Of a stretch of DNA of 17,563 nucleotides, positions 1 to 17,563 are shown piece after piece (the stretch's first letter is position 1; each line of letters opens with the position of its first letter). The notes below the pieces were generated by a model. That model had not been told where the DNA came from, made no database searches, and worked only from the letters and a program-made list of their open reading frames with translations. Position numbers and translations under genes: made by a program. Source of the DNA: Candidatus Desantisiibacteriota bacterium (GTDB taxonomy: Bacteria; UBA9089; CG2-30-40-21); contig JACQYP010000058.1 in assembly GCA_016208205.1 (NCBI GenBank), forward strand, positions 5,982 through 23,544, read 5' to 3'.

Positions 1-1753
1 CTGTAATGGTTGTGGTGCCATACTGCTGGACATCAACCGTAAAGCTTGTGGTAAATGAACCCTGTGTGCCGGCCTGTGCTGTCTGAATAGTAGCATTGGT
101 GCCAAAGACTACGGTAATGTTATCTCCTGCCGCATAGCCTGTGCTGTAAATCGTAACGATCGTGCCAACCGTACCTGTTGTTGGTGTAACGCTGACCACC
201 TGCGGCGAGATAAAGAAGCTGTTGCCGGCACTTGCGATACCTTTGGCTGTAATGGTTGTAGTACCATATGCCTGGACATCAACCGTAAAACTTGTGGTAA
301 ATGAACCCTGTGTACTGGCAACCACCTGCCCAATGGTAGCATTAGTGCCAAAAGCAACGGTAACAGCATCACTTGCGGCATAGCCTGTGCTGTAAATCGT
401 AACGATCGTGCCAACACTGCCTGTTGCTGGTACAACGCTGACCACCTGCGGTGTAATAAAGAATCCATTGCTGGCAATTGAGATACCGCTGGCTGTAATG
501 GTTGTGGTACCATACTGCTGGACATCAACCGTAAAGCTTGTGGTAAATGAACCCTGTGTGCTGGCAACTGCTGTCTGAATAGTATCATTGGTGCCAAAGG
601 CTACTGTAATATTATCTCCTGCAGCATAGCCTGTGCTATAAATCGTTACCACTGTGCCAACGCTGCCTGCTGTTGGCGTAACACTGACCACCTGCGGTGT
701 AATAAAGAAGCTATTGCCGGCAATTGAGATACCGCTGGCTGTGATAGTTGTAGTACCATACTGCTGGACATCAACCGTAAAGCTTGTGGTAAATGAGCCA
801 TTCGTACTGGCAACTGCTGTCTGAATGGTAGCATTGGTGCCAAAGGCTACGGTAATATTATCACTCACAGCATAGCCTGTACTGTAAATCGTAACGATCG
901 TGCCAACGCTGCCGGATGTCGGTGTAACACTGACCACCTGCGGGGTAATAAAGAATCTGTTGTTGGCACTTGCGATACCGTTTGCTGTAATGGTTGTGGT
1001 ACCGTATACCTGGACATCAACGGTAAAGCTTGTGGTAAATGAGCCCTGTGTGCTGGCCTGTGCTGTCTGGATGGTAACATTGGTGCCAAAGGCTACGGTA
1101 ATATTATCCCCTGCGGCATAGCCTGTGCTGTAAATCGTAACTATTGTGCCCACTGTGCCTGTTGCCGGTACAACGCTGACTACCTGCGGTGTAATAAAGA
1201 AGCTGTTGTTTGCACTTGAGATACCGCCGGCTGTAATGGTTGTGGTACCATACTGCTGGACATCAACCGTAAAGCTTGTGGTAAATGAACCCTGTGTGCT
1301 GGCCTGTGCTGTCTGGATGGTAGCATTGGTGCCAAAGGCTACGGTAATATTATCCCCTGCGGCATAGCCTGTGCTGTAAATCGTAACTATTGTGCCCACT
1401 GTACCTGTTGCCGGTACAACGCTAACTACCTGCGGTGTAATAAAGAAGTTGTTGTTTGCACTTGAGATACCGCCGGCTGTAATAGTTGTGGTACCATACT
1501 GCTGGACATCAACCGTAAAGCTTGTGGTAAATGAGCCATTCGTGCTGGCAACTGCCTGTTGAATGGTAGCATTGGTGCCAAAGGCTACAGTAATATTATC
1601 ACCAGCTGCATAGCCTGTGCTGTAAATCGTAACTATTGTGCCAACGCTGCCTATTGTTGGTGTAACGCTAACCACCTGCGGCTTGATAAATATGGTGTCT
1701 GTATCAACATCAGCCGCATCAGCCAACACTGTTGTTATACCATAAACCTGCGT
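1..1753 (-). repeat. Homogeneous 246-bp (82-residue) repeat block
   Basis: Anchors at 32, 278, 524, 770, 1016, 1262, 1508 and 1754 are exactly 246 bp apart. Units share long stretches of identical DNA. The segments starting at 1016 and 1262 differ by only seven bases in 246 by my count, five of them silent. The unit runs through FFITPQVVSVVPATG, TGTVGTIVTIYSTGY, AAGDNITVAFGTNATIQ, QGSFTTSFTVDVQQYG and TTTITAGGISS. Compared with the 85-residue units, the linker between the last and first strands is three residues shorter. I see no cysteine codon in this block. It is the part of the array closest to the C terminus in the window and continues past position 1. It most likely arose by recent unequal recombination or slippage, with the reading frame preserved. 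Confidence 0.92.
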
Positions 1754-4700
1754 ATCAATGGTAAATACACCCGTAAATGCACCGTTTACATCACTGCTAA
1801 TCACGGTAATGCTTGGTGTTAGGCCAAAGTCAACACGGACATCGGTACTTGCCGCAAACCCAGTGCCATTGATACCAATCACCCTTCCTACCGTACCATT
1901 TGCAGGTGTTACATGGATAACGCCACGGATAACGAACACGGTCTTTCCTGCCGGAATACATGTCTTGCTGCCAATAGCCACAATGGTCGTTAACCCATAG
2001 GGCTGATTATTAACCGTAAAGGTAGTTGTAAATTCACCGTTATTATCTGCAATACATTTTGTTATCGACCTTGATGTTCCAAAGTCAATGGCTACCCCTT
2101 CATTGGGTGCAAAGCCATCACCCTTAACCGTAACGATTACACCCAGCGTCCCCTGTGTTGGCGTAACGGTTACAATCTTTGGACTGATCCCAAAGGTGGA
2201 TGTAGCCATTCGACCAGAACCTATGCCCTGTGCCCTGATGATCGTCACCCCTGCCGGCTGAACATTAACCACAAAGGTAGTGCTGAATGTTCCCAGATTC
2301 GAAGCAGCACAGTATGGATTTCTTGACTCAGTATCAGTACCAAAGAATACCTGAATCACCTCATTTGCCTGATACCCATTACCAGTAACCGTAACCGTAA
2401 TACCTGTTGTACCGGATGGCGGGACAACCGCAGTAATATTTGGTACAAGTCCAAACCTGCTCACACCTGTTTCACCAGAGCCGGTACCCCTGGCATTGAT
2501 TGTTTTTGTCCCATAAACCTGAGTATCAACCGTAAATATCTTAGTAAACACACCATCAGTATCAACCACCGGATCAACAATGGACATGGTTGTTCCAAAA
2601 TCAATCCATACCTGTTCGCCTGATTGATAACCGTCACCAATAACCGTAACAAAGCTGCCTATGGTTCCGGTAGTTGGTACTACCTCTCGGATCTTACCAC
2701 GAATCTTTACTGTTGTCAGATTAGATAACCCGCTTGAAAGCCCTGTTGCTGTTAAGGTTGTTGTCCCAAACACCTGAGTATCTATGGTAAAGCCTCTGGC
2801 AAAATACCCGCTGATATCCGGTATGACTGTAAACATATTTGTACGATTACCAAAGTCTATCTGTACGGTTTCAGAGACAGCATAGCCGGAACCCTCTACC
2901 GTAATCCATGCACCTACCACACCGCTTGCCGGTGACACCCAGACCCTGGGCGTAATCCAGACATAGTCGCTTGCCGGGACACCATATGTCTTACCAACAC
3001 CCTCAACCATGGTTTTACCACATTTTTGAGTATCTATGGCAAAGGTTGTTGTCCATGATCCTTCTTCAGATGCCTCATCAACATATTGTATCCCGGCACT
3101 GGTTCCAAAGTCTAACCTCACTGCCTCACTTGTTCCATAACCGGTTCCACAAACCGTAATTATGCTGCCCAGCATACCGGTTGTTGGATTAATCACAATC
3201 TTTGGTATGATAAAGTGGTATGAGCTAAAACATGTCGGTGTACTTAAGCCCGAGGCTGTTATTGTATGCGTCGCATATTTCTGGGTATCAACTGTCCAGA
3301 CAACACTGAATTCACCTTGTGCATTACTCACTGTGTCGGTAATACTTATAGTCTTTCCATAATCAATCCGTACCCTTTCCCCTAAGCCATACCCATTACC
3401 CATAACCGTGACTAAAGAGCCGGTCATGCTCACGGTTGGAGACACAAGAATAATATTTTCACGAATATGGTAGTAATTATAAGCTCTCTCCCCTGATGGA
3501 ACACCCTCAGCATCTACGGTCGTTGTCCCATAGATTTGGGTATTAATAATATAACTTACCTCAAACTCACCGCGATAATTGCTCCATGTATTCGCAATCT
3601 TTGGCTCCAATATTGTTCCAAAGACAATAAATACCTGCTCACCTGCCCCATACCCATTACCCTTGATAGTCACTATACTGCCAACCGTGCCAAAGGATGG
3701 TAGAACATGGGTAACATTGGCACATATTGTAAACGGTGCTGTAGTCATCTCAGCCGTACTGCTGCCATAAACCCTGACAACCTTTTCCCCATAGGGTTGG
3801 GTATTGATAATATATGTCCCGGCAAATGTCCCATATTCTGATGTGAATATCTTATCCTCTAATAATTGCTCACCTATATAGAACCTGATCCATTCCTTAT
3901 CTCCATATCCATCACCATTAATACTGATTATGCTGCCAACAGAGCCTCTGGTTGGTGTCATATTGAGAATATGACCACGAATGGTAAAGACATCCGTATC
4001 TGTTAAGTCTGATTGCAAGCCTGTAGCAATAATTGTTGTTACGCCAAAGGATTGTGTATCAATAACAAAGCTTGTCTCAAACCCACCCTTTATATTTGTT
4101 TCAACCCTGACTACATCCTGGCTTCTACCAAAATCAACCTGAATCCACTCGCCTGCCCAGTATCCCTTGCCCTCAAGGACAACCAATGTCCCAACCGTAC
4201 CAGAGCTCGGACTGACAATGGATATGCCGGGATTGATACTAAATATCCTTGTATGCGTCTGCCCGCTAAGCAATCCGGTAGCCTTAACATCATGCCCACC
4301 TGTCGGCTGCTCATCCACAACAAAGCTTGTCGCAAAGGTGCCCTCACTGCTTGTTGTTGCTATGGCAATGGTTAATGTCTCACCAAAATCAACACTAACC
4401 TGCTCATCACTTCCAAACCCTGTGCCCTCAACCGTAACCGTAAGACCAACGGTTCCTGCCTCAGGGCTAAGCACTGAAATCTTAGGCTGGATATAATAGT
4501 AAACCTGAGACTTCAGCCAGGAGGTTAGTCCATTTGCCTTCACAGTCTTTGTCCCATACGGTTGAGTGGTTACAGTAAAGGTTGCTATACACCAACCATT
4601 GCTATCTGTAGTCGGCTGAGCCACCTTACCGGGCAATGTACCAAAAAGTATGCTTACTTGTTCAGATGCATAATACCCATCACTCACTATCTCAACCAAT

Positions 4701-7700
4701 GCCCCAACAGAACCAATAGTTGGTGTGAGCGACCTTATTCTCTGAGTAATAAAGAAGGCTTTATCATATGTCTCACCGCTTGTATTTCCTATAATTGTTG
4801 CTGTCTTTGTCCCATACACCTGAGTATTAATAGTAAATACGCATGTCCATGAACCCTGATTGCCTGTTGTAAGGGTTATAATACTCGGGGTATTCCCAAA
4901 GTTTATCTTAATAGACTCACTTGTTCCATAACCTGTTCCCTTAACTGTAACAAGTGTTCCAATAGTCCCTGTTGTTGGGCTAAAGGAATAGATGTTACAG
5001 GTAATATCAAATATCCTCTGCACCTTCAAGCCACTCGTTAAGCCGGTGGTCATAATAGTAGTTGTTCCTGCTACTTGAGTATTTACTGCAAATACAACAG
5101 AGAATGTCCCGCATGGAGCCTTTTCTTGAGCAGGGCTGCTGGCTATACATATAGCCATGGTTGGCTTATTACCAAAGGTAATATGTATGGTTTCATTAGC
5201 CTTGTAGCCGGTACCAACCACTGTCACACTTTGACCAACCGTACCGGTCATAGGCGATACAAGTGTTATGTCCGGAATAATATTAAAATAACCAAACGCT
5301 GTTAATCCTGAACTCATTCCATAGGCATTAAATGTAGTTATTCCGGCCGGCTGGGTATCAATAATATAGCTCGTAGTAAATGAACCAACTCCAGTCGTAA
5401 ATGGTACCTTCCATGCACTTGTTGTTCCAAATGTAATCTTTACTAATTCAGTCTTCCCAAAACCATTACCGGAAATCATAACGGTTGTTCCAACAGTACC
5501 AACAGATGGTGTAACATAGGTCACATTCCCAATAATCACAAATCCATCTGCAGAAACAAGCTTAGATTTATACCCTGTAGCAATGATAGCTGTTGTTCCT
5601 GGATTACCGGCACTCCATTGAGTTGCTTGAGTATCAATAGTAAATACTGCCTCAAAGTATCCACCTGTATTCGTAACAACCGCCTTAATCTTTGTCTTTG
5701 TACCAAAATCAACATCTATCTGTTCATTCTTATAATACCCGTCCCCTGTAACCGTAACAAATGTCCCAATTGTACCAACATTCGGGCTTACCTCATGTAT
5801 CCTCTGTGTAACAAAGAAATAAACCCGATCAACCTTACCACTGCTAAGACCGGTAGCAATAACCGTAGTTGTCCCATAAACCTGGGTATCAACCGTAAAT
5901 ATGGTTTCAAACCTTCCGCTACCGCTTGTAGTAAGTACTATCAGCGTAACCGTTGTTCCAAAGGAAATCCTGACATTCTCAACCGCAGGAGTTCCATAAC
6001 CATTACCCACAATACTTACCAATGTCCCTACAATACCACTTGTTGGGCTCAGGATAGAGATACCATACTTAACCACAAACTCTATATAATCAATTTGACC
6101 AGATTCAATACCCTGAGCAATAACCGAGCATGTCCCGGCCGGTTTATCATCTATGGTAAATATTATCTCAAAGTTGCCGTCTGTTTGAGCATAACCAGTA
6201 GCGATAGTTTCGGTTGTCCCGACCCCTAATCGAACATATATTTCCTCTTCTCCTTTATAGCCATTACCAATAAGTGTAACCGTTGTCTCTACCGGACCTG
6301 TTGACGGCTGGATACCGGTTACCCGACCGGTAATAAAGAAAGCACCCTTGCTCTGCTCAGATGATATAAATCCTGTTGCCGTGATGGTCTTGGTAGCCGC
6401 TTCTTGTGTATCTACGGTAAAGACAATCGTCCAGATACCGTTATCGTCTGTCTGTCCAATCTCTATCTGCTGTCTGTTCCCAAAATCAATCTTTACATTC
6501 TCGTTAATACCATACCCAACACCGCTAACCGTAACCACTGTTCCCACAGAACCATTGGTTGGTGTTACCTCAATTATCTTGCCATGGATATAACAGCTAT
6601 GTGTGGCTGTTGCCCCTGATAGACTGCCTGTAGCAAGTATAGTTGTCTTGCCCGACGGCTGGGTATCAATAGTAAAGCTTGTTGTCCATGTACCGTCATT
6701 ACTTGATATAGCCGGGGAAACACCAGGACTTGTGCCAAAATCAACAGATATATTCTCAGCAATGCCAAAGCCTGTCCCTGTAATCGTTACCACACTCCCG
6801 AGTGTCCCACTTGTTGGTGTTACCGATACAATACTGCCAACTATCTTGTATAGCTTTTCTGAGATACATCCGCTGGAAGCTCCGGTCACCCTTACAGTTG
6901 TAGATCCATAGCTTTGAGTATCAATGGTAAATACAGCCGAGAAGGTACCAAGCGGCAATGTTGCTGAAACCGACGGAAATTCTATCCTGTCATTTACCTT
7001 GCCAAAGTCAATATGCAGATACTCACCAAACGATATGTTTATTGTCCCATCAAACCCATTACCCTCAACCGTTACCGGGCTTCCAACCGTACCAATAGAA
7101 GGCGAAACCCGGGTAATATTACCAATAATCTTGAACTCATTGCCGGCAATATCAGTGGCACCGGTCTTCATCCCCTTAGCCGTAATACTCTTTGTTCCAT
7201 AAGGCTCAAGGTCAACCACAAAGCTGCCGGTAAATGTCCCAAACAGGCTTGTTTGAGTATTTCCAATAGACTGATTATTGCCACCTGTCCACTTGTAGAA
7301 TTCATTACCAAAATAGAAATTCACTGCCTCATTGACACTCCAGCCATCACCCTTCAGGGTTACTGTAGTTCCTACTGAACCAATGGTTGGGCTGACAGAG
7401 TATATCCTTGGCATAACCCAGAAAGAAATATTGCTTGCCTTGGTCTTTGTGGTTTTCCCTGTAGCTGTAATACTATTTCGTCCATAGCTTTGTGTATCCA
7501 CAGTAAAGGACACGCTGAATGTCCCATACTGTGATGTCGTAACTACAGCAATGGTCTTGGTTGTCCCAAAGTCAACGGTTATTTGTTCACTCTTTCCATA
7601 TCCATTACCCTGGACAGTAACATTTGTACCGATAATTCCAAAGGATGGCTGAACTTTGATAAGATTGCCGACAATATTATAGATATTCTGTGCTGTCTGA

Positions 7701-10700
7701 CCAGAGTTTGTACCGCTGACTACAATCGTTGTTGTCCCAAAAGATTGTACATCAATCGTAAAGATAGATGTCCATTCACCGAAATTACTGCTTTCACAAG
7801 AACTTATGGAATTATTTGTTCCAAGCTTGATATTAATCGTCTCTGTAGATGCATAACCATTGCCATAAACCGTCACCTTAGAGCCGACAGTACCAATAGT
7901 TGGCATAACTGAAACCACATTGCTGGTGATAAAGAATCTATTGAATGTCTCCTGACCTGACTCACCAACTCCATTAACCCTTATGGTTGTTGTTCCACAG
8001 GATTGAGTATTAATGGTAAACCCAATCTCAAAATGACCATCTGCTCCGGCATAGGCAGAGGTAATCGTACCCTCAAATGTACCAAAGTAAACATTGATAG
8101 GCTCAGTATCGCTATAACCACCACCCTTAATAGTGATTATTGTTCCCACACTGCCAACAGATGGTGTTACTATAGCTGTATCTCCAATTATCTTGCAATA
8201 TCCTTCAACCGGTGGTGTGGCATTCCCATCCACTGCTACAGTTTTTGTTCCATAGACCTGAGTATCAATGGTAAAGGTAACCATAAACGAGCCGTTACTC
8301 ACAGTATTCCCAACCGGTATCCTCTGTCCATTACCAAATTTCACATAAATCCCATCAGGATAAGCGAAACCATTACCCCAGACCGTAATTATCTTGCCTA
8401 CTGTGCCAAAGGCAGGTGATATATTTGTTACTGCAGCCTGAATGCTGAATGTACCACTCTTTATCATACCGCTATTTTTCCCAATAGCAGATAGAGCCCT
8501 GCCGCCAAGCGGCTGAGTATCGGCTGTAAAGGTTACTGAGAACGAGCCATAACTGCTGCTCGTCCCAATAGCAATGGTTGGTGTTGTTCCCAGACTGATA
8601 CGAATATTCTCAGCAGAGCCATAGCCGCAACCCTCAATGGTTATTAATGTGCCAACCGTACCCTTCAGCGGTGTAATCAGGGTTAAGCCGGTATCAACCT
8701 TAAAGTAGCCACTGGCCTCCTGATTAGATACAGGACCTATTACAGTAATGGTTGTTGTCCCGGCCGGCTGGGTTGTGACCACAAAAGAGGTGCTGTATTT
8801 ACCTACCCCATTAGACACTGCATTGGCAATGGTTTTAGTAAACCCAAAGTGAACCGTAACTATTTCATTCATTCCATAACCGTCACCATTAACCGTTATC
8901 CTTGTCCCAACGGTTCCGCTCGAAGGATTAACAGACAATACCCTGCCCTTGATGATAAAGATATTCTGAGCCTTACCAAGTGAGCCGAATCTGCCTTCAG
9001 CAGTAATGGTTGTTGTCCCGCCCGGCTGGGTATCAACCGTAAAGATTGAGGTAAGTGTTCCGGCTGCAGACGAATAATATGTCGGTCCATGCGGTGATGA
9101 ACCAAATACATTCCAGATAGGCTCACTGGGTGCATACCCATCCGTCCATATCCTGACAACCGTTCCTACGCTGCCTTGAGTTGGTGATACTAACAAAATT
9201 CTTTGTATCAGCTTGAAGGTAAGGGACGATGATGCAGCCGTTGTTACCCCATATGCTGTCACGGTCTTTGACCCTAACGAGGCTACATCCCAGGGTTGAG
9301 TGTCAATGGTAAAGGTGACTATAAATAACCCTGCCTCATTTGCCTTGCAGGTAGCAATGGTCTTAGTCGAACCATAAGAGATGCGAATGGTTTCGCTTGC
9401 CCCATACCCGGCACCCATCATCATTACTTGTGTTCCAATGGCTCCTGAATTTGGAGTAATCGTGGTCGCATCAACCGTAACTATAAACTTCCTGCTGTCT
9501 TCCTCGTTTGAGGTCAGTCCATAAGCCCTGACAGAAGTAAATCCATATACCTGTGGATCTACCGTAAAGCTTACGCTGAATGTGCCGTCCGGCGTTGTCT
9601 CAATATTAGCAATGCTGTGTGTTGTCCCAAAATCAATTGCTGCAACCTCTGCCTCGCCATAGCCGTCACCCTCAACAATAACCCAGATGCCGACCGTTCC
9701 AACGGTTGGTGAAAGAAGGGTGATATGGACTTGGATCCGACACTCATTTCCTGCCTGCTCGTTTGATGTTATCCCTCTGGCAAGCACAGTAGTTGTTCCT
9801 TTATGTTGGGCATCAATGGTAAAGGCTGTGCTGAACGCACCATGGATGTTTGTACTTGTCTGCACGATGGTTGCTGCTTTGCCAAAGTCAATCCCTATAT
9901 TTTCACTTGCACCAAATCCATCACCATACAGGCTGATAGTTGTTCCTACTGAGCCGGAATTGGGTGTTACCAATCGTATCCTTGGTCTGATATTAAAGTA
10001 AACAAGATCCTGTTCCTTTGTAATTAAGCCGGTAGAAAGTACGGTTGTTGCTCCTATAGCCTGGGTATCAATGGTAAATGTGGTTGAGAATGAGCCGTTC
10101 GCATTGGTAGCCACTGTGGTAATTGACATAATTGTCCCAAAGTCAACACGGATCACCTCTCCTGCACCATAACCATTTGCCACAAGCGTAACAATCGTCC
10201 CTACCGTCCCCCTGTCTGGTGACAGGATGATGATTTCCTGGGTAATCTTCAACCTGTTTGTTGAAACCGTACCAGACTCAAGACCGGTAGCAATAATGGT
10301 TGTCGTTCCATATCTTTGAGTATCAATGGTAAATATAGACTCAAAATATCCACAGGCATCAGTAGTAATTAGAGAGATACTCACCGTGTTACCAAGCGAG
10401 ACCCTTACCAATTCAGTTGCCTTATAGCCGTCACCGATAACTGTCACGAATGTCCCTACCGTACCAGTCGTTGGTAAAACAGATGGAATGGCTGGATTAA
10501 TGGTTATGTAACCAATATCCTCTTTATTGGTAGATACCCCAAGAACTCTAATCGTCGTACTACCAAGCTGCTGTCTGTCAATGGTAAAGGTAGTGCTGAA
10601 TGTCCCTTCAATGGATGCTTGTGTAATGGCTATTGAGGGTGTTGTTCCAAAGATAACATTAATGGTCTCTTCATTACCATACCCATTAGAGTAAATAGAG

Positions 10701-13700
10701 ATAAGTGTCCCGACCGTGCCATAGGTTGGCGTAACCAATGAAAGCTTGGTTTTAATAATATATGTATTCTCTGAGACAACACCTGTGCCTATGCCTGTTG
10801 CCTTAATGGTTGTTGTTCCATAGCGTTGCGTATCAACGGTAAATGTAGCTGTCCATGAACCCCTGATATCAGTCATTGCCCGGGTCATATCCATATACTT
10901 ACCAAAATCAAGGACAATCCCTTCAGAGATACCATAGCCATTACCAATAACCGTTACACTGGATCCAACCGTGCCAATACCTGGAATAACGAATGGGATG
11001 CTTGGCTCAATGAAGATTTGTTCCTTAGCCGTCAATTTAGAGTCAAGCCCTGTCCCAAGGATGGTTGTTGTGCCATAGGGTTGCGTATCTATGGTAAAGG
11101 TTACGCTGAAGGTACCGCCAACCCAGCAATCTATTGTTCCTGATACCTTAGTTATTCCGCTTGTAGTTACCGCCGTAATGGTTCCATTTGTCCCAAAGTT
11201 GATCCTTACCTGCTCTGTGGCATAATATCCATTACCCTCAAGGCTGATGGTTGTCCCTACCGTTCCATGGGTTGGGGTACAGATAATTATCCTGGGAATG
11301 ATGAAGAAGGTAGCTGTATCCCTTTGGCCCGGATAACCCTTGCTTCTGACAAGGATAGTCGTTGTGCCTGCAGGTCTTACATTTGTTGTAAAATAAGCCG
11401 TAAAACTGCCACAAAGATCATCTGTCCAAACAGTAATATCTGTATTACCACCATTTCCATCATTATAATTTACCTCATTGGTACCAAAATACACACTTAA
11501 TTTCTTCTGGATATCATACCCATTATTGGTAGTATACCCATTGCCCCGCACCTCTATCTGCGTCCCTATCGTACCCAGTGACGGTGAAACCAGGATAATT
11601 CTCGGTGTAACCTTGAATATATTAGAATTAATCTCTTTACTATCCATACCCTTAACAGTAATGGTATGACTTCCATAGGGTTGTGTATCAATGGTAAACA
11701 CATGGGTAAATGAACCATTTGTCGAGGCATAGGTAGTTGTCAGCGTGGGATTCATCCCATACTCAATAACTACCAGCTCGCTACTGCCATAACCATCAGC
11801 CTTGATAGTTACTACTGTCCCTACAGAGCCTTCCCTTGGCTCATAATAGATAAGATTCGACTTAATGATAAAGAACTGGGAGAAGGCAGACGATGCCCCA
11901 ATGTCTACACCTGTAGCCAGAACCGTGGTTGTTCCAAACGCCTGGACATCAACCGTAACCGGCACTTCAAACGAGCCTGCAGCATCTGTAATTGTAGTTG
12001 CAGCGGTTGGACTCTTGCCAAAGGTGATATGGATATTGCCGGAAGGATTATACCCAGTACCTTTAACTGTAACCACCTGACCCACTGTCCCGCACGCTGG
12101 TATCACATCTGTCAGCTTAACCCCAATGAAGAAATAAGAAATGGTAGCAACATCAGAGGTCATCCCACTAACTACAACCGTCGTAGTACCATAAGTCTGT
12201 GGGTCATCGGCATTAAACCAACCCACAAATGTACCTACATCCGTTACACCCCATGCGTTTGATTCACTCATACTCATAATAGTACCAAAGTCAAGCTTGA
12301 CCTTCTCACCCTGGCCATAACCAGTACCGGTAATGTAGACCGATATACCAATTGTACCGGCACTCGGTGAAACAAGGGTAATCTTGGGCATAACACGGCA
12401 ATAACCATAATACTCGGCATGAGACTGTAAGCCATAGGCACTAATAGTCTTTGTTCCTGTAAACTGAGTATCAATGGTAAAGGTTGTGCTGAACGATCCC
12501 ATTGGACTGGCATAGGTCGTGGTAATGCTCCCTGTTTTTCCAAACCCGATACGAATAGGCTCACCTGCATCATATCCGGTGCCGGCAACCATAATAGTTG
12601 CCCCAACCGAGCCAAAGGTTGGATAGACCCCGGTAATCTCGCGTTTAATGGTAACCATAGCCCAAGTTGATGTTCCGCTGCTTGAACCAATACAGGTGAC
12701 GGTTGTTGGACCTATGGGCTGGGTATTAATAGTAAAGGTAACACTGAATGTACCGTAGATATTTGTATGAGTAGCATTAATTGTCTTTGTATTGCCAAAG
12801 TCAACACGAATATCCTCATTGGCACCATATCCGTTACCATAGACAGTTATAATAGTTCCTACTGTCCCTTCTAATGGACTAACCCAAATCTCCGGCCTGA
12901 TGGTAAATATTTGGGTAAAGGTAGTACCCGCCTTTGATCCCAGAGCAGTAATAGATGTTGGACCAACAGGTTGCTCGTTAATAATAAATTGCGCACTAAA
13001 GGTACCATGTCCTGTAGCCGAGCCGGAAAGCATACGAGTTGTTCCAAAATTAATAGTTATCCCTTCACCGATCCCATCCATAGCACCATAACCGGTACAT
13101 GTCAGATCAACCATGCTTCCTACTGTGCCTGCTGTAGGTGTAATGATCAGATTCTCCTTCATCGTAAACATAATAGTGCCTGACGCACCTGATACAATGC
13201 CTTTAGCCATAACCACCACATCACCCCATGCCTGAGATGTAGTGGTAAAGTTAGCCGTAAAAACACCATTTTCCAGGGCTTCAGCTGTGGTTACAGTTTT
13301 ATCATCCCCAAAATCAACCCTGACAATCTCATATCCTTGATAACCCGTGCCCTCAATATAAACACCCATACCCACAGTCCCTGTTGTTGGAGATATGGAT
13401 GTTACCCCTGTAGTGCTATAGAATACATCATCATCAGATGTCTTGGATGTCAGCCCTGTAGCCACAATGGTTGTCTTGCCAACCGGCTGGGTATCGACGG
13501 TAAACGAGGCATTAAACACACCATGAATATTGGCTGAAATAAGTGTAATAGATGAGGTGCTTCCAAAATCTATTCGGACAAGCTCTTCTGTTCCAAACCC
13601 ATTACCATTGACAATAACCTGGGTCCTTGCCACTGGTCCTGATAATGGAGTTACATTGACAATATGCCCCACAACCTTGAGGTAATTAACCGATTGCTGT

Positions 13701-16700
13701 GAACTATTAGCCCTCCAACTACGAGCAAGGACTGTGCTTGTACCAGCCGGCTGAGTTGGTATAGCAAAGGTAACTACAAAGGCACCATTTACATCAGTCT
13801 CTGTAGTACTTAAGTCATATCCTGGTACTTCAAATTGTGATACAACATCTATCTTTGTTCCAAACTGTATCCCAATCGTCTCTGTAGCACAATATCCATC
13901 ACCCCTGACCGTAACCGTTCTCCCAACCGTACCACTGTTTGGAGAAACCTCCCAGACTCTGGCAATGATCTTATAGAAATCATCAGCCGGCTGATTGGAA
14001 ACAACACCTGTAGCGGAAATGGTCTTTGTCCCATAGGTTTGGGTATTTACGGTAAACACACAGGTAAACGAGCCAATATTGTCTGCATAGATTTCAGTAA
14101 TACTTTGAGTATTGCCAAAGTCAATTCGAATAAGCTCATTTATCTTAAACCCATTACCCTTAACCGTGATCATGGTTGTTACTGTCCCAAAGGTTGGGTT
14201 AACCTGAGTTATCCTTGTCTCAATGTTATAGAAATTAACAGACGATGTCCCTGATGATGTCCCTGTTGCCAGGATAGTGGTCACGCCCCATCCTTGTGTA
14301 TCAACCGTAAAGGTGGTTGAGAATGAGCCGTATTTATCAGCCTGGGTATACACTGTCTTGCTTGTCCCAAAGTTTATTCTCACACCCTCATAGGCTGTAT
14401 AGCCGTCACCCTCAACATATACGTCAGAGCCAACCGTGCCATGATTTGGTAAAACAAACTCAACCTTGGGATTAATGATAAATGTCTCTGAAGCAGATAT
14501 ACCGGTAGCCAGCCCATAACCGGTAATTGTCTTTGTGCCAAGCTGTTGATGATCAATGGTAAAGACTACTGTCCATGAACCATAAATCGTGCTGCTTGCA
14601 TAGGCAATGGTTGGTGTTGTCCCAAAATTAACCTCAACGCGTTCCCTATAACCATAGCCATTTCCAGAAACCGTCACGAATGTCCCTACAGTGCCGTAGT
14701 TTGGTGAAACCCGAATGATTCTCGGCAGGATCACCAGGGTATTGGTTGCCTGGTTAAGGATAGAGCCAATGGCAACAATGGTTGTTGTGCCATAAACTTG
14801 AGTATTTATGGTAAATGAAACCGTAAATGTTCCACCCGCACCACCGGTTTCATTAGAGCCTATAACCCCGCTTGTCTGAACCACTGACCTGCTTATCGTT
14901 GTCCCAAAATTAACCTGTATTGTATCTGTTGCCGCATAGCCATTACCCCAGATGGTAACCCCTGTGCCAACTGTACCGGATGCAGGCGTAACATCGTATA
15001 TCTTGGCTGTGATATAGAAGGTAGCTGTTGCGGCTACAGCATAATAATCATGAGCCATGATGGTTGTTGTCCCGCCCGGCTGGGTATCAATATCAAATTC
15101 AACTGTCCATGTCCCATCTGTTGTGGTCTGTGTTGCAGCAATCTGGTATGGATACACCCTGCCGCCAAAATCAATCCACAATGCTGCTGTCGGGCTATAC
15201 CCATTACCCCTGATAGTGATATGCGTGCCAACCGTACCATTGTCCGGCAGAACATGGGTGATATGCGGCTTGATAAAGTAATCAATAGATGGCTGCTGAT
15301 TTGTCCTCAACCCCTTCCCTGTAACGGTCTTGGTAGCATAGGACTGGGCATCAACCGTAAATACAGCGGCAATCGTCCCCATCTCTGCTGCCTTAACCGT
15401 AGCTATGCTTGGATTCTTGCCAAAGATGATCCGGACATTCTCTGTTGCCCCATAGCCATTACCATAAACCGTAACAAAGCTTCCTACTGTGCCGCTCGTT
15501 GGCACTATTCCTGTAATATTGGCTATAATGGTAAATGTCCCTGAGGCATTGGCTCCTGGACGATTGGTATCAAAGGCTGTAATCGTAGTCGTCCCCTGAG
15601 CCTGGGTATCAACCGTAAAGGTACAGGTAAACGAACCCTCTGCTACAGAGGTAGTATTCGTAATAGTGCCATTATTTCCAAACTGCATACGAATACTTGA
15701 GTTTGCCCCAAATCCATTACCAGCCACAGTGACAATCGTTCCAACCGAGCCGGTTGTTGGTGCTATCTTAATAATATTGGACTTGATATCATAGAAATTA
15801 TAGGCTGAGCATTGTGTCTCTGCACTTATACCGGTTAATATTGTTGAGCCATAGGGTTGTGTATTAACCACAAATTCCATGGTCAAGGTACCATCAATTG
15901 AGGTATTATAGGCACTATTATATTCATCAACATTTGTTCCAAAATACAGCAAGATCTGCTTTTTCTCGTCATAACCGGTCATGTAAACCGTAACATTTAC
16001 CCCAACCGTACCAAAGGATGGTGTCAATCTTACCACCTCGGGCATGATCTTATAGTATCTGTTGACTACCTGTTGTGTTGCCGTACCGGTAACGGTTACG
16101 GTCTTTGTGCCGTATATTTGCGTATCGATTGTAAAGATGATGGTAAAATCACCAATTCCATCTGCAGCCGGTATCTTAATAGGCTTTGTCTTGCCAAGGT
16201 CAATGGTCACATTCTCATTTGCCCCATAACCAGTACCAACAATAGTAATATAGCTGCCTACTGTCCCATAGGTTGGTGTAATCAATGGTACATCCGACTC
16301 AATGTGGAACCTGTTCTCTGCCAGATGATTGATCTCATCATATAAGCCGGCAGCTATAACGCTCTTTGTGCCATAGAACTGATGGTCAACGGTAAAGCTT
16401 GTCTCAAACATACCCTTAATAGAGGTTATTGGTGAGGCAATGGTTGTCGTTGTCCCAAAGGTTACTCTAATAGTCTCAGTAGCTGCATAACCCTTACCAA
16501 TAACACTGACCAATGTCCCTACTGAGCCTGTAGTTGGCGAAACTACATGCACCTTTGAGGTAATAAAGAAGATATCATCATCAACCTCCTTAGTACCGTT
16601 AATACCGGTAGCAATCACGCTTGTTGTCCCATAGGGTTGCGTATCAACTACAAATCTTAATGAGAATGTCCCGTCAAATGATGCTGGTCCAACGACTATC

Positions 16701-17563
16701 TGCGGTGTTGTTCCAAATTCAATGGATATAGTATCCGTGCGTTCATAGCCGTCACCCCTGACCTCAACATCGCATCCAACAGGACCGGTATTAGGCAGAA
16801 CATGGGTAATATGCTGGAATATACTGCACGTTGTTGCTGCTGCTACGCCGGACTCAATGCCGGTAGCCGTTACCGGACGAGGACCATAGGCTTGAGCATC
16901 AATGGTAAAGGTGGTATTAATGTTGCCTATATTCGATGCCAGGGTAGTAGTAATGCTATTATTTGTTCCAAAGCCTATTCGAACCTGCTCATAAGCCTTG
17001 TAACCGGCACCCCAGACATTGATGGTTGTGCCCACACTCCCTGACTGAGGCGAAACAAAGATACCAGTGGTTATCTTGAAATAATTATAATGTGTCCAGT
17101 CGGTAGTAGTACTTGTCACCCTGACCGTAGTCGTCCCAACCGGCTGGGTATCAACCACAAAGTAAGCCATAAAGCTGCCGTCAATAATAGCACTTGCTGT
17201 AGCTGCCGCTGGTTTTGTTCCAAAATCAAGACTAACGGTCTCACCGGCTACATAACCGGTACCCCAAACCGTAACAAGTGTTCCCACAACACCCTCTGTT
17301 GGCGATACCCTCCAGACCTCTGGTTTAATAATAAAGGTATTGTATGCCTTTTGTAATGCCTTGTTCATCCCTTCAGCTGTAACTGTGGTTGTTCCTAATG
17401 CTTGAGTGTCAATGGTAAACCTGATAGTAAACGAACCGTTAGTACTTGCTTTAAGTATCGATGCAATCTGTTGTTTTGTGCCAAAATGAGCATAAACAAA
17501 TTCTTCGTAACCATACCCTGTGCCAAGTATAGTAACCACTGTCCCAACCGTGCCCTGACCTGG
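1..17563 (-). CDS. Giant IPT/TIG-like Ig-repeat protein, interior fragment without start or stop
   Basis: One frame is open across the whole window, with codons from 17563-17561 down to 4-2 and base 1 left over. Reading every triplet, I found no in-frame stop, so at least 5,854 residues are encoded and both ends lie outside. The translation is 68 tandem units of about 82-102 residues. Each has GTVGTxVT, GxGY or GxGF, a strand ending FGT, then GSFTTxFTVDTQ and GTTTITATG. The first half matches the IPT/TIG Ig-like fold; the second half is a less standard version of it. No enzyme motif, transmembrane segment, signal peptide or anchor is visible. By analogy with other giant Ig-repeat proteins it is probably an exported or surface fibre or adhesin, but that is inference. 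Cysteines are scattered upstream and absent from 1-1753. Alternative family names such as a generic bacterial Ig-like domain are possible; coding status is near certain. Confidence 0.96.
1694..1723 (-). other. Asp-rich linker at the junction of the two repeat zones
   Basis: The ten residues ADAADVDTDT, with four Asp, join the last divergent-type unit to the first 82-residue unit. Elsewhere in the homogeneous block this linker is Gly/Ser/Asn rich (GGISSANNN). It marks the boundary where spacing changes from 255 to 246 bp. Rigidifying the inter-domain joint through calcium is conceivable but not shown. Confidence 0.6.
3983..4009 (-). other. Acidic inter-unit linker SDLTDTDVF type
   Basis: The linker between units at 4058 and 3803 reads DLTDTDVFT, with three Asp in seven residues. 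It occupies the same place as the acidic linkers at 1694-1723, 13421-13444 and 16562-16591. Confidence 0.5.
5081..5356 (-). repeat. Long unit (276 bp) with a two-cysteine loop insertion
   Basis: This Ig-like unit is seven residues longer than the common 85. The extra length falls in the loop between the FG strand and the GTF strand. That loop carries two cysteines, encoded at 5147-5149 and 5111-5113, reading C-IASSPAQEKAP-C. If the protein is exported, the pair could form a disulfide across the loop; this is inference from position only. Confidence 0.75.
5357..5635 (-). repeat. Long unit (276 bp), insertion in the loop after VDTQ
   Basis: The usual turn VDTQxxGTT is expanded to DTQATQWSAGNPGTT, encoded at about 5591-5635, adding seven residues between two beta strands. 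The rest of the unit keeps GTVGTTV, GNGFG and ITFGTT. This is a different insertion site from most of the other long units. Confidence 0.72.
6920..7210 (-). repeat. Long unit (291 bp) with an expanded FG strand region
   Basis: The unit is 12 residues longer than the common form. The strand leading to FG appears partly duplicated: after GNGFDG it reads INISFGEYLHIDFGK, with two FG pairs where other units have one. The following loop, VNDRIEFPSVSATLPLG, is also longer than usual before GTFSAVFTID. Confidence 0.7.
7211..7495 (-). repeat. Long unit (285 bp), YFGNE-type loop insertion
   Basis: After the strand NFYFGNE, the loop is expanded to include YKWTGGNNQSIGNTQ before GTFTGSFVVD. The YFG-N-E...Y...GGN pattern also appears in the long unit at 11381-11686. 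The two may share an ancestor or be a distinct unit subtype. The loop is rich in Gly, Asn and Gln and looks flexible. Confidence 0.72.
9032..9304 (-). repeat. Long unit (270 bp), insertion in the loop after VDTQ
   Basis: The turn after the conserved D is expanded to DTQPWDVASLGSKT, encoded at 9263-9304, in place of the short DTQPxGTT turn. This adds five residues at the same place as the insertion at 5591-5635. Confidence 0.7.
11087..11380 (-). repeat. Long unit (294 bp), loop insertion after FG
   Basis: The core keeps GTVGTTISL, GNGYYATE and INFGTNGT. The loop to the next strand is then lengthened (about 11117-11180) and includes TSGITKVSGTIDCWVGG before GTFSVTFTID. The extra sequence is Thr/Ser/Gly rich with a single Cys and Trp. 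Confidence 0.72.
11381..11686 (-). repeat. Longest unit (306 bp), DGNGG loop insertion
   Basis: At 102 residues this is the longest unit. The region after GNGY is expanded (TTNNGYDIQKK) before VYFGTNE. The loop after FG then contains VNYNDGNGGNTDITVW before DDLCGSF. The closely spaced Asp, Asn and Gly resemble calcium-binding loops, but no defined metal motif is complete, so binding is only a possibility. The linker has been replaced by DSKEINSNIF. It follows directly after another long unit. Confidence 0.73.
13421..13444 (-). other. Acidic inter-unit linker KTSDDDVF
   Basis: Three consecutive Asp codons (13427-13435) sit just before the opening strand of a unit. Most units have polar but uncharged residues at this place. 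Confidence 0.5.
13757..14044 (-). repeat. Long unit (288 bp), loop insertion and Pro at the conserved D
   Basis: The loop after FGTK is expanded with IDVVSQFEVPGYDLSTTE before NGAFVVTF (about 13784-13865). The conserved D of the VDTQ strand is replaced by Pro (AIPTQPAG). The unit otherwise keeps GTVG near 13920-13935 and the final GTSTV strand. Confidence 0.7.
14804..15085 (-). repeat. Long unit (282 bp), Gly/Ser-rich loop insertion
   Basis: Between FGTT and GTFTVSFTIN the loop is lengthened to include ISRSVVQTSGVIGSNE followed by TGGAGG (about 14834-14910). The location is the same post-FG loop that is expanded in most other long units, and the core strands are unaltered. Confidence 0.7.
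16562..16591 (-). other. Acidic inter-unit linker TKEVDDDIF
   Basis: Glu plus three consecutive Asp codons (16574-16582) precede the opening strand FFIT of a unit. The layout is very like the linker at 13421-13444, although about 3.1 kb separates them. Confidence 0.5.

Follow-up and report, generated by a model that had tools for sequence, protein, structure and literature searches.

Introduction

Giant proteins of up to ~ 85,800 residues have been reported, with Omnitrophota, Elusimicrobia and CG03 mentioned among their sources (PMC12057145), and the giant open reading frame (ORF) of Candidatus Velamenicoccus archaeovorus, a member of the Omnitrophota, encodes 39,678 amino acids with 42 predicted membrane helices (PMC10066038). 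In a survey of huge proteins, signal peptides were almost confined to those of fewer than 20,000 residues (PMC11573180). Another long chain is MpAFP, a 1.5-MDa RTX adhesin of Marinomonas primoryensis with ~ 120 tandem immunoglobulin-like (Ig-like) domains, which are expected to line up as a chain (PMC3492233). As for export, the type IX secretion system (T9SS) is described for Bacteroidota and, possibly, further FCB phyla, and is stated to be absent elsewhere (PMC11285876), and Desantisbacteria, being grouped with PVC (PMC12057145), lie outside the phyla so named. Here we analyse a 17,563-base stretch of contig JACQYP010000058.1 from Candidatus Desantisbacteria, an uncultured bacterium of groundwater (hereafter the window), which lies within a giant gene on the minus strand. 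It is probably an internal piece of the gene for a single giant chain of Ig-like domains, secreted by a T9SS-like route.

This gene resembles the giants of Omnitrophota in being a single ORF of tens of thousands of codons in an uncultured lineage; most of those giants have few annotated domains, whereas the Desantisbacteria gene encodes a near-uniform array of Ig-like repeats that has a signal-like segment at one end and a tail of the T9SS type at the other. With MpAFP it shares a chain dominated by tandem Ig-like domains. The MpAFP repeats are, however, identical at the DNA level and accompanied by RTX-like repeats, with a suggested type I route (PMC3492233), whereas the Desantisbacteria giant has ~ 4 times as many repeats, divergent and in a fixed order, and the RTX motif GGxGxDx(LIVFY) gave 0 matches in all 17 of the gene pieces scanned. 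The nonapeptide repeats that RTX/T1SS adhesins such as MpAFP, LapA and SiiE carry close to the C-terminus were thus not found in these pieces. The likeness to T9SS substrates lies in the signal-like segment, in a tail related to those of PorU and PorZ, and in the SprA, C25 and PorV-family genes of related genomes. It differs from them in that its tail scores below the sorting model TIGR04183 and in a size far beyond that of SprB, which has ~ 6,500 amino acids. No giant gene of Desantisbacteria is described among the literature matches listed (titles and beginnings of abstracts, with preprints and closed journals outside the scope). Giant genes are already known; the Ig-array architecture and the export route look new.

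One frame of tandem repeats fills the window

The original prediction, made from the letters of the window alone, held that a single minus-strand frame of 5,854 codons runs through it without start or stop. This was borne out. Read from base 17563 down to base 2 (2..17563, minus strand), the frame contains 0 stops in the sequence as deposited, against ~ 348 expected from the base composition of the strand (log10 P ~ -156), and the other five frames hold 134-621 stops each. Both the start and the stop of the gene are outside the window. The encoded part has a mass of 612 kDa and an isoelectric point of 4.9, and is rich in Thr, Gly, Val and Ile. A protein of at least 5,854 residues and ~ 600 kDa or more had been proposed, a bound that holds and is far too low, since an orthologous frame described below runs to 18,588 codons. 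The caution that an ORF call limited to the window would overlook the gene was also well founded: the default list (≥ 100 amino acids) consists of 11 small ORFs and lacks the 5,854-codon frame.

A self-built hidden Markov model divides the product into 68 head-to-tail repeats (67 intervals) of ~ 85 residues each, which together cover 5,853 of the 5,854 residues, with a spacing mostly of 82-87 residues and in some cases of 89-104. At the DNA level, anchors in coding phase make up 31 of 31 of the DTQ-coding form and 55 of 59 of the form GTNGGN(A/T)(C/G)N. Hence the claim that all 67 anchor intervals are multiples of three stands as regards the number of repeats and the phase of most anchors, whereas the exact anchors behind it were not reproduced. 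The observation of a giant minus-strand gene reaching past the window is confirmed, its reading as one giant protein is supported, and the function of that protein is now partly inferable.

Repeat order is conserved and the frame is under selection

A search for relatives matched 13 of 61 genomes, with frames above 5,000 amino acids in at least 4 of these. The contig C336 (JAHIZN010000456.1, 55,768 bases) of the metagenome-assembled genome (MAG) Modern_marine.mb.176, here G001, consists of a single open frame that holds 219 repeats in 18,588 codons, again without start or stop. The best matches of the window repeats w0-w60 (1667..17563, minus strand) are the C336 repeats c29-c89 in strict order, 61 out of 61, with a mean identity between orthologous repeats of 80% (lowest 63%); within the window the mean identity among w0-w60 is 38.5% (150 of 1,830 pairs sampled). 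A second MAG, G002, carries frames of 19,075 codons (contig C111, also collinear with the window) and 11,115 codons, and a protein of the Desantisbacteria MAG HY793 (P0002) is 73% identical to the window protein. Taken as a giant ORF of more than 20 kb without interruption, the gene is seen at that size in the orthologous contigs of 55.8 kb and 57.2 kb, the window alone being 17.6 kb and cut by its edges.

Between the window and the two orthologous contigs, the synonymous rate (dS) is 0.62 and 0.52 and the nonsynonymous rate (dN) 0.13 and 0.12, giving dN/dS of 0.21 and 0.23. These values are over window residues 1-5216, the last 638 codons having been excluded because the tail repeats do not correspond one to one. 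Furthermore, the proportion of nonsynonymous differences is below that of synonymous ones in 10 of 10 blocks in each of the two comparisons. The conserved order and the dN/dS values show that the gene is genuine and old and that purifying selection acts on it over the length compared.

The tail array behaves differently. It consists of w61-w67 (2..1666, minus strand), spaced by 82 residues, the last copy being truncated by the edge. Repeats w61-w66 are 86% identical among themselves and 70% identical to C336 c90-c103, a pattern that points to recent homogenisation or expansion. One gene thus shows repeats evolving in two ways, the last seven copies being near-identical and the other 61 old and divergent. 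The window protein itself (P0001) is recorded on a contig of 23,544 bases. A partial protein of 1,987 residues from a Candidatus Desantisbacteria bacterium (P0016, HY792_03090), encoded on a contig of equal length, starts in the same tail array and, beyond it, aligns in order with what comes next in the orthologous contigs. Since 17,563 + 5,961 + 20 = 23,544, the window most likely ends at a ~ 20-base gap inside the near-identical tail repeats. The HY792 proteins P0008 and P0014 match other stretches of the giant gene. A partial protein of the same repeat family (P0019, HY772_03460) is labelled Woesearchaeota archaeon and possibly comes from a mis-binned contig.

Ends and length of the gene in related genomes

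The original prediction had advised extending the frame to both ends and looking there for a signal peptide or an anchor. This was done through relatives, which have a signal-like segment at the N-terminus and a domain of the T9SS type at the C-terminus. The start in G001 lies on contig C130, where a TTG codon preceded by GGAG is followed by a signal-like segment and the first repeats; the end of this contig shares an overlap of 38 identical bases with contig C161, which has 3,274 codons and 39 repeats. A start of the same kind (TTG, GGAG upstream) and a signal-like segment are found on contig C177 of a third genome, G003. By hydropathy, an N-terminal Sec-type signal is predicted at the starts of G001 C130 and of a fourth genome, G008.

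Over the 17 pieces of the gene, judged by eye from a simple hydropathy profile, the signal segment is the sole convincing membrane segment, in both pieces with a start, and the window has 0 transmembrane-like segments. Nine further hydropathic segments (four in C336, one in C222, one in G008 C2 and three in G005 C1) lie inside repeats and were read as strands. Hence multiple transmembrane helices of the Omnitrophota type were not found by hydropathy in the window and the 17 pieces.

At the other end, G002 C266 (2,393 codons) is the end of the gene and comprises eight Ig-like repeats, then repeats of a different kind over ~ 1,700 residues, and lastly a domain of ~ 110 residues. The six pieces of G002 (2,151 + 3,240 + 1,435 + 19,075 + 11,115 + 2,393) amount to 39,409 residues and 442 repeats, in an order that we infer, with the start falling in an N gap. 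In a deeper branch, contig C1 of G008 carries a start and signal-like segment, a 100-N gap and then a 21,112-codon frame, and its last 127 bases are identical to the start of C2 (23,492 codons). This junction is spanned within one contig by C1 of a fifth genome, G005 (85,129 bases, open for 28,375 codons), and comparison with G005 C29 places the G008 C-terminus on C323, ~ 270 residues past the end of C2. The three G008 frames amount to 45,269 residues and 487 repeats; this sum and that of G002 each contain ~ 60-90 residues that are gap letters (X) or out of frame before an N gap (G002 C437 and G008 C1). Adding the missing piece and the 336 residues that precede the N gap, and subtracting overlap and gap letters, we estimate the full G008 product at ~ 45,800 residues.

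The surroundings of the gene agree between the branches. A TIG-like protein of ~ 650 residues is encoded upstream in 4 of 4 start regions examined (with other genes intervening in G008), with 38-41% identity from one branch to the other; at the other end, 3 of 3 C-termini examined (G002, G005 and G008) have a PorV-family gene downstream. Judging from sequence, the window's close kin and the G008/G005 branch would represent one locus. The TIG-like protein (L018 1168-3189, also on G002 C437, G003 C177 and G008 C1) may be a companion protein.

The repeats are predicted to be Ig-like domains

Three window repeats (9716..10480, minus strand) were modelled as chained Ig-like beta-sandwiches (model A1, m406d1740c23a) with a pLDDT of 95.3 and a pTM of 0.82. 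The best PDB match of this model by Foldseek is the pentameric surface-layer (S-layer) protein 7ptp (E 1.6e-8), a second structural search has a Deinococcus S-layer among its matches, and overall adhesins, receptors and complement proteins all contribute Ig-like chains to the structural matches. The window repeats are therefore predicted to be Ig-like beta-sandwich domains.

Sequence searches returned less. The first 1,000 window residues matched nothing in PDB by sequence and, in one scan, no relative in viral contigs, and two window pieces (1,000 and 700 residues) matched no NCBIfam model. The IPT/TIG family PF01833 was above the Pfam cut-off in 0 of 6 window segments, whereas the protein of ~ 650 residues encoded upstream is recognised as TIG (E 6.6e-16) and its homologue P0004 carries PF01833; this upstream protein (C130:1333-2280) matches the window repeats at 36%. 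Two families exceeded their cut-offs on the tail repeats, PF00662 (E 1.6e-16) and PF16277/DUF4926 (E 4e-9), and both were rejected as repeat-driven chance because the short match recurs in each near-identical copy, in a window without membrane helix. PF00662, the N-terminus of complex I chain 5, is a trap at 2-2563 (minus strand), and a protein database labels the window protein accordingly (P0001). Weaker Pfam rows below cut-off were dropped as well, among them SSB (E 0.19) and F5/8 type C (E 0.022). With the PF00662 label set aside, neither the window protein (5,854 residues) nor the two C-terminal regions that were scanned had an enzyme family above cut-off.

A C-terminal domain and neighbours of the type IX kind

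In G002 C266 and G005 C29, the final ~ 110 residues align with the tail part of the PorU model (E 8e-10 and 5e-10); the matches are far below the whole-protein PorU cut-off, as expected for a tail alone. For P0007, the orthologue of the G002 protein, the best PDB sequence matches of the tail are PorU (6za2, E 0.002) and, weakly, PorZ (E 0.92). In Foldseek, the model of the P0007 tail has PorU as its top match (E 6e-4, TM score 0.62 on the query) and PorZ at rank 9. In G002 C266, P0007 and G005 C29, all outside the window, the C-terminal domain thus appears by sequence to be homologous to the tails of PorU, RgpB and PorZ. Among 135 proteins compared, 14 share the G002 tail at E ≤ 0.001, and 11 of these 14 carry PF18962, which we take to be Por_Secre_tail, the T9SS sorting tail; 10 of 12 tails from these 14 matches were aligned.

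The gene that follows G002 C266 belongs to the PorV/PorQ family (E 6e-41, above cut-off, and below the narrower PorV and PorQ equivalog cut-offs), and the downstream genes in G005 and G008 were assigned as PorV-like by shared motif and position. The SprA model (TIGR04189) finds matches in 5 of 5 related genomes and in 0 of 14 controls. Four SprA/Sov homologues of ~ 2,000-2,190 residues from Desantisbacteria-like MAGs (L095, L096, L097 and L099, from G001, G002, G003 and G008) scored 211.9, 199.8, 201 and 184.6 as whole proteins against a cut-off of 200, so that 2 of 4 are above it. A protein search also gave SprA homologues, two of which bear the name Desantisbacteria, HY793 being one of the two. 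A C25 peptidase is above cut-off in 5 of 5 genomes. There are five such gingipain-like matches in G005 (C44, C6, C43 and C11) and four in G008 (C260, C213, C143 and C41), and the C25 frame on G008 C260 continues, by eye, into similar repeats.

Discussion

Our preferred explanation is that the window encodes part of one very long secreted chain. The full product would have at least ~ 39,000 residues in the window's close kin and ~ 45,800 in the deeper branch, most of them in Ig-like domains. An N-terminal signal peptide would direct it into the Sec pathway, and a translocon of the SprA type (type IX) would carry it across the outer membrane, with its C-terminal sorting domain and the PorV-family partner encoded just downstream as guides; the chain may then be kept at the cell surface or released from it. 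In T9SS cargo of Bacteroidota the C-terminus is held at the cell surface; provided that the same applies here, the N-terminus would be the distal part. An Ig-like domain is ~ 4 nm long, and 442-487 of them would form a fibre of about 1.8-1.9 micrometres when fully extended; a more cautious range, for ~ 440-490 domains, is roughly 1.5-2 micrometres. Such a fibre would most likely serve as a stalk or adhesin that would grip surfaces, mineral or other cells, a role preferred by analogy with MpAFP and its chain of ~ 120 Ig-like domains. The more specific proposal, a chain of 40,000-46,000 residues (4-5 MDa, 1-2 micrometres extended) exported by T9SS outside the described phyla, in which hundreds of divergent Ig domains have kept their exact order over long evolutionary spans because position along the fibre is itself functional, is a possible if somewhat doubtful one.

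A number of observations weigh against parts of this explanation. No complete copy on a single contig was seen, and the joining of all pieces into one chain is presumed from sequence. Moreover, the tail of G002 C139 agrees with the opening ~ 187 residues of C336, and C111 just upstream of the match point differs; C139 (L076) resembles C111 at ~ 7030-8050, mostly at 54-62%, and this conflict near the C336 start may reflect either a block duplication or a second branch. On the secretion side, the P0007 tail model has a pLDDT of 71.6 with unreliable first 30 residues, and hence medium confidence; FlgD, which is not a T9SS protein, ranks 4th among its structural matches; and the giant's own tail, below type A sorting model TIGR04183, reaches only PorU or M6-type model tails. 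A search for SprA by single place gave 0 matches above cut-off, and the scores of 199.8 and 184.6 fall just under it. The C25 protein of G001 bears its own TIGR04183 tail and reaches 79.1 bits with the PorU model, whose cut-off is 420, and is thus at best a putative PorU. The GldM profile matched 0 of 5 genomes and likewise 0 of 14 controls, which makes its silence uninformative. Finally, the genomes in which these T9SS genes were sought are five relatives of the window's own.

The main rival for the role is a cell coat, in which the chain would wrap or tile the cell like an S-layer or capsule instead of projecting as a stalk. The S-layer proteins among the structural matches, with 7ptp the best of them, and the coat-forming function proposed for the V. 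archaeovorus giant (PMC10066038) speak for it. S-layers, however, are built from many short copies and not from a single chain with tens of thousands of residues, and the same model matches adhesins, receptors and complement proteins equally; since the matches are spread over so many types of Ig-like chain, the fold does not decide between coat and stalk, and we consider a coat somewhat unlikely. A membrane-spanning weapon of the Omnitrophota type, which would attach to other cells and digest them, is decidedly unlikely. Giant ORFs above 20 kb are said to occur commonly among Omnitrophota, with a link to predation or symbiosis (PMC10066038), and giant proteins have been proposed to act in recognition and cell-wall degradation (PMC12057145), but in the window and the two C-terminal regions no enzyme family apart from the rejected PF00662 is above cut-off, the array is uniform, and in place of the 42 predicted membrane helices of the V. 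archaeovorus protein the signal segment is the only convincing one here.

Whether a giant chain exists at all may also be questioned. Very long chains should be costly and hard to complete, and the product might be cleaved after translation or translated piecewise, which we regard as unlikely. Indeed, the frame is free of stops over 18,588, 19,075, 23,492 and 28,375 codons, purifying selection along it is even, G008 has one start region and one strong C-terminal match (no search for further starts was made), and G002 and G005 have one strong C-terminal match each. A misassembly of several shorter genes, which the original prediction had named as what would undo it, could in principle have fused or collapsed their repeats; the near-identical tail array with the gap inside it and the conflict between C139 and C111 are of the kind that this would produce. 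The 61 non-tail, divergent repeats nevertheless occur in the same order in separately assembled contigs, G002 C111 being collinear too, and G005 C1 crosses the G008 C1-C2 junction within one contig, which makes an artefact extremely improbable.

If a single secreted Ig-like chain is indeed what the gene encodes, it would be among the longest predicted proteins for which both ends and an export route have been assigned, and one could then test how bacteria produce giant proteins and to what end. It would widen the size range of T9SS cargo several-fold, with SprB taken for comparison. It would also place the T9SS in a lineage missing from one recent list (PMC11285876). The fixed order of divergent repeats over ~ 0.5 synonymous substitution per site argues against a mere spacer. 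Furthermore, with one homogenising array beside sixty-one non-homogenising repeats, the gene offers a natural experiment on tandem repeats.

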